From contig SVTH01000001.1 in the NCBI GenBank assembly GCA_015063885.1, positions 1 through 64,000 on the forward strand: a stretch of DNA of 64,000 bases. Direction: 5' to 3'. This stretch comes from Oscillospiraceae bacterium (lineage in GTDB: Bacteria > Bacillota > Clostridia > Oscillospirales > CAG-382). Position numbers and translations under genes: made by a program. Below, one piece after another: positions 6,348 through 7,436 of this stretch; position 1 is the stretch's first letter, and each line of letters starts with the position of its first letter. Below the pieces are notes generated by a model. It searched no databases. It was not told the DNA's origin and saw nothing but the letters and a program-made list of their open reading frames with translations.

Positions 6348-7436
6348 ATGGCAAGACAATTTGACCGCAAACTGATTCTGGAAGACGGCAGCGAATATTA
6401 CGGCTACGGCTTCGGTGCAACCTGCGACCGCGTATGCGAGCTCGCATTCCATACCTCCATGACGGGCTACCAGGAGATCATTTCCGACCCCTCTGCCGCA
6501 GGCATGGCGCTGGTAATGACCTACCCCCTCATCGGCGGCTACGGCATCACCGACGAGGACTTTGAGTCCCGCACCCCCTCCCTGGGTGCCTTGATCGTGG
6601 GGAGCTATTGCGACAACCCCTCCAACTTCCGTACCACCAAGACGTTGGCGGAGATCCTGGAGGAAGACGATATTCCCGGTATGGAGGGCATCGACACCCG
6701 CAAGCTGGCCCGCCACCTCCGTGACAACGGCAACTGCCGCTGTCTCATCACCGGGGTGGAGACCTCCCGGGAGGAAGGGCTGAAGATCATCGCCGAGACC
6801 CCCGTGGTCAAGGATCTGGTGGCCCGCGTCAGTTGCCGCAAGCGCTGGTTTTCCCGCACTCCCGACCACATCTTCAACGTAGTGGTCATCGACTGCGGCA
6901 CCAAGCTTTCCGTCATCCGCACCTTCAACAAGCTGGGCTGTAACGTCACCGTCATGCCCTGGGATTCCACCGTGGAGTCCGTCCTGGCCAACAAGCCCGA
7001 CGGCATCCTGATCTCAGACGGTCCAGGGGACCCCGCAGACGCTTCCCCGGTCTGCGACCTGATCAACAAGCTGAAGGGCAAGAAGCCCATCTTCGGTACC
7101 GGCTTGGGTCATCAGCTCATCGCCATGGCCTACGGCGCCAAGATCGTAGCCATGAAGACGGGACACAGAGGCGGCACCTACCCCGTCCGCAACCTGGTCA
7201 CCGGTAAGATCGAGATCACCTCTCAGAGCCACGGCTACGTGGTGGACGAGGCCTCCCTGGCAAGCACCCCCCTCACCGTCACCCACACCTGCGTGGTAGA
7301 CGGCTCCGTGGAGGGTCTGGCCTGCAAGGAAGACAACATCTTCTCTGTACAGTACTACCCCGAAAGCGCCCCCGGTCCCCAGGACAGCGCTTATCTCTTC
7401 GATATGTTCATCACCGCCATGAAGGAGGCCAAGTAA
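6348..7436 (+). CDS. carA: Carbamoyl-phosphate synthase small subunit with a degenerate glutaminase site
   Basis: The 362-residue protein has both CarA domains: the N-terminal subunit-specific domain (LEDGSEYYGYGFG, SMTGYQEII) and the class I glutamine amidotransferase domain. In this family the amidotransferase hydrolyses glutamine and channels ammonia to CarB. Here the nucleophile motif GICLGHQ reads GTGLGHQ, so Cys (E. coli 269) is Gly252. The QYHPE motif reads QYYPE, so the catalytic His (353) is Tyr337, although the Glu remains. The glutamine-binding Asn in SQNHG is Ser294. The frame is intact and the rest is conserved, so this is not simple decay. Glutamine-independent, ammonia-fed synthesis is inferred. 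The ATG at 6348 has GAAAGGTG upstream; carB follows after 1 nt. Confidence 0.93.
   Translation: MARQFDRKLILEDGSEYYGYGFGATCDRVCELAFHTSMTGYQEIISDPSAAGMALVMTYPLIGGYGITDEDFESRTPSLGALIVGSYCDNPSNFRTTKTLAEILEEDDIPGMEGIDTRKLARHLRDNGNCRCLITGVETSREEGLKIIAETPVVKDLVARVSCRKRWFSRTPDHIFNVVVIDCGTKLSVIRTFNKLGCNVTVMPWDSTVESVLANKPDGILISDGPGDPADASPVCDLINKLKGKKPIFGTGLGHQLIAMAYGAKIVAMKTGHRGGTYPVRNLVTGKIEITSQSHGYVVDEASLASTPLTVTHTCVVDGSVEGLACKEDNIFSVQYYPESAPGPQDSAYLFDMFITAMKEAK

Follow-up and report, generated by a model that had tools for sequence, protein, structure and literature searches.

The window, as we call the whole analysed stretch of 64,000 nucleotides from an Oscillospiraceae bacterium, carries a pyrimidine operon in the order pyrR-pyrC-carA-carB-pyrK-pyrD-pyrF-pyrE-pyrB-pyrI. 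The genes and the codons that matter here are listed below, with the basis of each assignment in brackets:

4470..5096, + strand: pyrR-type phosphoribosyltransferase, upstream in the pyr operon (domain search)
5113..6315, + strand: pyrC, dihydroorotase; adjoins carB upstream where carA is missing (domain search, operon comparison)
6348..7436, + strand: carA, glutaminase-dead small subunit of carbamoyl-phosphate synthase (CPS), 362 aa (PF00988 and PF00117 domains, residue alignment)
7101..7103, + strand: codon GGC of Gly252, the nucleophile position, E. coli Cys269 (alignment with E. coli CarA)
7227..7229, + strand: codon AGC of Ser294, position of E. coli Asn311 (alignment with E. coli CarA)
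7356..7358, + strand: codon TAC of Tyr337, position of E. coli His353 (alignment with E. coli CarA)
7362..7364, + strand: codon of Glu339, the retained third triad residue, E. coli Glu355 (alignment with E. coli CarA)
7438..10617, + strand: carB, intact synthase subunit, 1059 aa, starting 1 base after the carA stop codon (domain search)
8230..8232, + strand: codon of CarB Arg265; Arg here, Asn in 29 of 29 CarBs of carA-less pyr operons
10629..11372, + strand: pyrK (domain search)
11354..12271, + strand: pyrD (domain search)
12264..12962, + strand: pyrF (domain search)
13145..13801, + strand: pyrE-type phosphoribosyltransferase (Pribosyltran domain; name from its place in the operon)
13798..14715, + strand: pyrB, aspartate carbamoyltransferase, a user of carbamoyl phosphate (domain search)
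14712..15128, + strand: pyrI (domain search)

An earlier note made from the letters alone had claimed that this CarA lost its glutaminase residues in an intact frame beside an intact CarB. The alignment with E. coli CarA bears this out: the nucleophile Cys is replaced by Gly252, the catalytic His by Tyr337 and the Asn by Ser294, the frame from 6348 to 7436 contains no internal stop and the neighboring CarB is full length. Asn311 of the E. coli protein is the residue that we take to contact glutamine. According to the available part of PMC6245113, E. coli CarA cannot hydrolyse glutamine without Cys269 and His353. Instead of the Cys-His-Glu triad expected of a glutamine-hydrolysing CPS, the window CarA thus has Gly/Tyr/Glu. 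Despite the failed triad TIGR01368, the equivalog model for glutamine-hydrolysing CPS, scores it with 399.8 bits against a cut-off of 307.35. By domains, fold and gene context the protein is a CarA small subunit: it has both the PF00988 and the PF00117 domain, the predicted CarA fold and an adjacent carB. It also retains Ser49 (E. coli Ser47), Leu253 (Leu270), Gln256 (Gln273), Gly276 (Gly293) and the equivalent of the tunnel-loop residue Pro360. An AlphaFold2 model built from a 52-row alignment has a mean pLDDT of 88.1; this predicted fold matches the E. coli small subunit 1jdb_C with a TM of 0.92 and the other listed E. coli CarA entries, including the Cys269Ser mutant 1c30, with 0.91–0.92.

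The replacement recurs in close relatives. Among 121 rows, comprising the query and its 120 nearest listed protein matches in a database of 5.8 billion, 115 read Cys/His/Glu, two Gly/His/Glu and four Gly/Tyr/Glu, all four belonging to the window clade. Besides the window's own genome (G000) these are L002 from sheep rectum (genome G009, 99.7% identity to the window CarA), L003 from yak colon (G015, 89%) and L004 from water buffalo cecum (G010, 88%). The Gly/Tyr pair is therefore common to four genomes of one genus, all with an open frame and with CarA sequences that diverge in up to about 12% of their residues; it is also present in the protein clusters P0002–P0004. The earlier note had asked for all three positions to be mapped in relatives. 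Gly and Tyr recur throughout the clade, but the third replacement does not: Ser is shared by the window and L002 only, and L003 and L004 have Phe at the Asn311 position.

Five pairs are informative and give a pairwise dN/dS of 0.09–0.13 for the dead carA and of 0.07–0.12 for its glutaminase domain; in the sixth pair, which is nearly identical, carA has 0.007. For comparison, values in the Gly/Tyr clade are 0.06–0.11 for pyrC, 0.06–0.08 for pyrK and about 0.04 for carB. As dN/dS is near 0.1 in both CarA domains, the dead carA is under purifying selection and is not decaying. A second, intact carA, for which the earlier note had proposed a check, was not found: a search with PF00988 gave one match in the window's own genome (85.5% complete) and one each in the sister genomes G009, G010 and G015 (91, 90 and 98% complete). 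Given the completeness of the own genome a further CarA could be hidden there, less so in the 98% complete sister.

We surveyed 24 genomes of the genus and 63 of the family, 32 of the latter being at least 90% complete. In the genus a CarA match is present in eight genomes; it is dead in the four described above and intact in G018, G021, G022 and G023 (for G022 this refers to the arg copy, as the contig ends within the pyr copy). Thirteen genomes contain a full or nearly full CarB (two cut by contig ends) without any CarA match, and in 12 of them pyrC adjoins carB upstream. The remaining three genomes, G004 (61% complete), G008 (64%) and G020 (91%), contain no more than a fragment of CarB. All three states of CarA, intact, dead and absent, thus occur side by side in one genus.

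Across the family CarB (PF02787) is found in 57 and CarA (PF00988) in 32 of the 63 genomes, and in 31 and 19, respectively, of those at least 90% complete. At least one intact CarA is present in 16 of the 57 CarB genomes, 14 have only a dead one and 25 none, 12 of these 25 being at least 90% complete; G051 (frame below 200 aa) and G060 (cut at a contig end) are left out of these classes. Gly/Tyr is shared by the window clade, G038 and arg-operon copies from genus g5, other replacements being Ser/Asn in G025 and Gly/Arg or Ser/Arg in g11. G062 combines a Gly/Arg arg copy with a second, intact CarA. The arginine operons of G006 and G025 are likewise without carA and have argF immediately upstream of carB. 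The glutaminase loss had been presented as a trait of one organism. This view has to be given up, as dead CarA is found throughout the family and, as detailed below, the order.

A pyr-type carB without carA is present in 29 family genomes. Directly upstream lies pyrC in 28 of them, and in the 29th the contig ends before the pyrC position. The spacing between the matched parts of pyrC and carB is 24–97 bases in 27 cases and 282 in one. An intact CarA is encoded elsewhere in G039, G045 and G052 and a dead one in G033 and G035; 24 genomes are without any. The 29 carA-less CarBs come from seven genera and form one clade (SH-aLRT 100, simple model), so that carA was probably deleted only once and the deletion then spread or persisted. 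The window CarB is located in a separate clade together with CarBs of congeners with intact CarA (11 rows, SH-aLRT 100).

We identified 19 CarB positions that are conserved with CarA and changed without it, that is with at least 90% agreement in CarBs with CarA and the residue kept in at most 10% of the 29 carA-less CarBs. The CarA-associated set consisted of 12 family rows with intact CarA and 15 outgroup rows, three of which (L009, L030, L036) adjoin a dead CarA. Thirteen of the positions lie in residues 1–400, four in 401–552 and two beyond. The accessible text of PMC6245113 describes the carboxyphosphate and oligomerisation domains as the parts of the large subunit that meet the small one. 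CarB changes after CarA loss would therefore lie mostly in the two CarA-facing domains, a distribution that is suggestive only; the 29 CarBs being one clade, the 19 changes are not independent evidence. The window CarB retains the CarA-type residue at 18 of the 19 positions, which fits a CarA that is still bound. Among the residues kept is Arg265, presumably a wall residue of the ammonia tunnel. All groups retain the gate residues Cys232 and Ala314. The position of Ala251 is Cys in the window and also in family rows with intact CarA, so this change is not linked to glutaminase loss.

Some further differences between operons were noticed. Seven carA-less pyr operons (L127, L128, L130, L131, L133, L134, L143) have no pyrI match after pyrB; pyrI follows pyrB in operons with carA of the same genus. 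The arginine-operon CarB of G023 (L142:7500-11510) is fused C-terminally to diaminopimelate epimerase (PF01678, residues 1216–1329), and CarB frames of about 1340 aa are found in many arg-type rows.

In the order sample PF00988 matched in 117 of 147 genomes. From the 139 CarA matches outside the family we read 109, namely the 29 top-scoring and the 80 lowest-scoring, and found Cys/His/Glu in 64, an altered triad in 42 and a cut sequence in three; with the 30 middle-scoring matches left out, this proportion is not an unbiased estimate for the order. Cys is lost in 40 of the altered sequences, which belong to 12 families, and the other two (L382, L387) have only a change of Glu to Asp. Including the cut row L417, Cys is missing in 41 of the 109. 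In a combined set of 150 CarAs, among them eight Bacillota outgroup rows, 59 are without Cys. His is kept in all 91 rows with Cys; in the 59 rows without Cys it is replaced in 53, falls in a gap in two and is kept in four. Gly takes the place of Cys in 45 of the 59. Of the intact CarAs 90 of 91 retain the Pro360 equivalent, compared with 26 of 59 dead ones, and the Ser47 equivalent is not kept in 44 of the 59.

The least number of state changes is 16 on the 150-row LG+G4 CarA tree, which contains 16 all-dead clades, and four on a 44-row mixture tree of pyr-type CarAs. CarA inactivation probably arose several times. The LG+G4 tree joins the window clade with dead CarAs of other families. We rejected this grouping, as both the mixture tree and the CarB tree place the window with G018/G021/G023; long-branch attraction is suspected for this reason and is a possible explanation. 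On the mixture tree the window clade has a stem branch of 0.74 and groups with intact CarA of the same genus, with an unstarred support of 88. In our reading the window CarA is apparently still early in the process of loss. A dead glutaminase is also found outside the order, in three Bacillaceae CarAs (L030, L036, L039) with the motifs GIGLGHQ and QFEPE. As to the labels of relatives, a near CarB cluster is named Angelakisella sp., and CarA relatives are named Acutalibacteraceae and Oscillospiraceae.

Two other glutamine-using enzymes of nucleotide synthesis show related patterns. A match to CTP synthase (PyrG, PF06418) was obtained in 18 of the 63 family genomes, 13 of them among the 32 with at least 90% completeness; the remaining 45 and 19, the own genome included, gave no PF06418 match. 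Examples are G000, G003, G012, G015, G027 and G054, and several of the pyr operons concerned run from pyrC to pyrB. Of the 41 CarB genomes without intact CarA, 38 are also without CTP synthase and 24 have a short GMP synthase (GuaA). GMP synthase (PF00958) is present in 45 of the 63 genomes. The one of the own genome (L310:2476-3477, − strand, 333 aa) begins at the synthetase domain and is without a glutamine amidotransferase (GATase) domain. No separate GATase subunit for GuaA was found in G000, G012 or G015. In G012 (95% complete) the number of class-I glutamine amidotransferase domain matches (PF00117) is zero.

We analysed the statistical association among the 57 CarB genomes by Fisher tests, whose values overstate the evidence because the species are related, and by 20,000 within-genus shuffles. 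Intact CarA and PyrG are both present in 14 genomes, CarA only in two, PyrG only in three and neither in 38 (p = 9e-9; reached by 0 of 20,000 shuffles). In the 31 genomes at least 90% complete the counts are 10, 2, 2 and 17 (p = 8e-5; 547 of 20,000). For full-length GuaA the corresponding counts (both, CarA only, GuaA only, neither) are 10, 6, 3 and 38 (p = 4e-5; 211 of 20,000); in the complete set they are 8, 4, 2 and 17 with p = 0.002, which 3,374 of 20,000 shuffles reached, so that this association is not significant within genera. The short form of GuaA, in most cases called from the length of the frame, is weakly tied to CarA loss (4, 12, 24 and 17; p = 0.04), with 4, 8, 12 and 7 in the complete set (p = 0.15).

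A shortage of glutamine was considered as the cause and discarded. Of the 63 family genomes 58 have a glutamine synthetase, among them every one of the 32 that are at least 90% complete. The own genome has one match with a frame of 720 aa, as in type III proteins, and the 698-aa copy of a relative carries a named GSIII domain. A loss of every amidotransferase was likewise rejected: the nucleophile Cys is retained in PurF and AsnB-type proteins of G000 and in HisH of G003, G006, G015 and G018. Since glutamine is both made and used, the glutaminase loss is selective and shortage is not the reason. In several genomes glutamine synthetases, a split glutamate synthase, AsnB, PurF, full-length GuaA, PyrG and sometimes carAB are clustered. 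These clusters (L299, L301–L305, L309) contain varying combinations, and the proteins were named by eye except for four domain-checked ones in L299. Full-length and short GuaA frames are both present in G006, G044, G058 and G062, and G039 has a carA-less pyr carB plus a carAB close to pyrG. This suggests two sets for nitrogen incorporation, one possibly for ample ammonia and one for scarcity.

The residue losses, the selection and the intact CarB together indicate that CarAB most likely uses free ammonia. We are confident, if short of certain, that the window CarA is a selected protein without glutaminase residues which is predicted to act as structural or tunnel partner of a CarB making carbamoyl phosphate from free ammonia; pyrimidine synthesis in this organism would then likely run on ammonia. 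Absence of a second CarA, selection on both domains, the CarA-like predicted fold and the 18 of 19 retained CarB residues all agree with the earlier proposal that CarA was kept as a partner after glutaminase loss. Under ample ammonia the glutaminase would no longer be selected, and Cys and His of CarA would be lost together. The dead CarA may survive for a time as a scaffold. Ammonia could enter from solution via the vacated glutamine site or the subunit interface and would then reach the carboxyphosphate site of CarB past the retained gate residues. In other lineages the operon would lose carA altogether and CarB would change, chiefly in its two CarA-facing domains. That ammonia is the sole donor, that CarA has this remaining role and that an ammonia-rich habitat was the cause are points that we infer; near relatives with Gly/Tyr CarA come from gut samples according to their record titles. 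According to the available part of PMC6245113, E. coli CPS uses ammonia only at very high concentrations, and this counts against an ammonia-fed enzyme.

Some of the evidence can also be read in other ways. The nearest named copies stem from metagenome assemblies, so we considered a sequencing or assembly error. This is hardly credible: the separate sheep, yak and buffalo assemblies share Gly/Tyr at 88–99.7% identity, the copies show synonymous differences and dN/dS is 0.09–0.13, in line with the earlier note's own dismissal of an error. Another glutaminase could serve CarB in trans, with glutamine still being used. G000 does hold one further class-I GATase-like protein with a 247-aa frame, but it matches only positions 62–188 of the family profile and by eye is presumably of the gamma-glutamyl hydrolase type. 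A search of G000, G009 and G015 gave no second subunit resembling TrpG or CarA, and with the 12 genomes at least 90% complete that have CarB and no CarA match a supply in trans is highly improbable.

The absence of carA from other lineages of the genus and the long stem branch of the dead clade (0.74) would be expected if carA were a functionless pseudogene on its way out. Such decay is very unlikely, however, in view of a frame kept open over the divergence of the four genomes, of dN/dS near 0.1 in both domains and of the retained Pro360 and Gly293 equivalents, the former not kept in 33 of 59 dead CarAs. Persisting selection on the glutaminase domain and retention of the Ser47, Gln273 and Glu355 equivalents in the window clade could instead point to a CarA turned regulator or sensor, for example one binding glutamine or another ligand uncut and tuning CarB. 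With Asn311 lost in the window CarA and Ser47 not kept in most dead CarAs (44 of 59) we consider such a role unlikely. The best explanation would thus be an ammonia-fed CPS that works like vertebrate CPS-I and was reached repeatedly. There is about an even chance that a broader pattern holds, in which this order of Clostridia, gut-dwelling at least in part, switched the nitrogen source of nucleotide synthesis repeatedly, with free ammonia taking the place of glutamine: CarA dead or deleted, GMP synthase without its glutaminase domain and CTP made via another route replacing CTP synthase, glutamine-dependent versions being found mainly together with a linked glutamine synthetase/amidotransferase cluster.

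Vertebrate CPS1 resembles the window CarA in keeping a glutaminase-like domain that is dead. It has Ser294 in place of the catalytic Cys and requires external ammonia, and in the human enzyme Gln318 at the position of E. coli Gly293 blocks the old tunnel (available part of PMC4655335). As far as the sources at hand describe it, CPS1 is a single chain for ureagenesis that needs N-acetylglutamate. In contrast, the window enzyme consists of two subunits encoded by two genes in a pyrimidine operon, has lost His as well as Cys and keeps the Gly293 equivalent (Gly276). In its function the window CarAB would resemble CPS-I, but it does not belong to that fused, N-acetylglutamate-dependent enzyme. For E. 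coli, loss of Cys269 and His353 of CarA and synthesis from NH3 by CarB only (Rubino et al., by its title) are laboratory findings; the change in the window is natural, common to several species and under selection. CPS III of Alcolapia fish made a convergent move towards ammonia but kept the triad and lost a glutamine-binding residue (PMC7657897, available part). The ATPPase subunit of the archaeal two-subunit GMP synthetase can use external ammonia in vitro (PMC10526850, available part). The short GuaA of the family would by analogy need external ammonia, too; the archaeal GATase is a separate protein, for which we found no counterpart in G000, G012 and G015.

Among the literature matches listed, judged by titles and abstract beginnings and with subscription journals mostly outside, no paper describes a bacterial CarA without catalytic residues or carA-less carB operons. 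In the accessible text of PMC6245113 glutamine is taken as the physiological nitrogen donor of E. coli CPS and, by extension, of all bacterial CPSs. A natural, recurrent and order-wide loss of the glutaminase would provide bacterial counterparts of the vertebrate switch from glutamine to ammonia. With intact, dead and absent CarA within one genus, the role of CarA for CarB beyond glutamine hydrolysis becomes testable. Dead CarA and GATase-less GuaA both pass NCBI models named 'glutamine-hydrolyzing', and automatic names are therefore misleading here. The lack of a recognised CTP synthase in 45 of 63 family genomes exposes a gap in the account of CTP formation. As a candidate for the missing function we considered a 265-aa ORF located between pyrF and pyrE in G002 (L131:4727-5524, − strand) and rejected it, as by eye it reads as a PHP-type phosphoesterase. 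Gaps similar to this insertion are found in G007 and G013.
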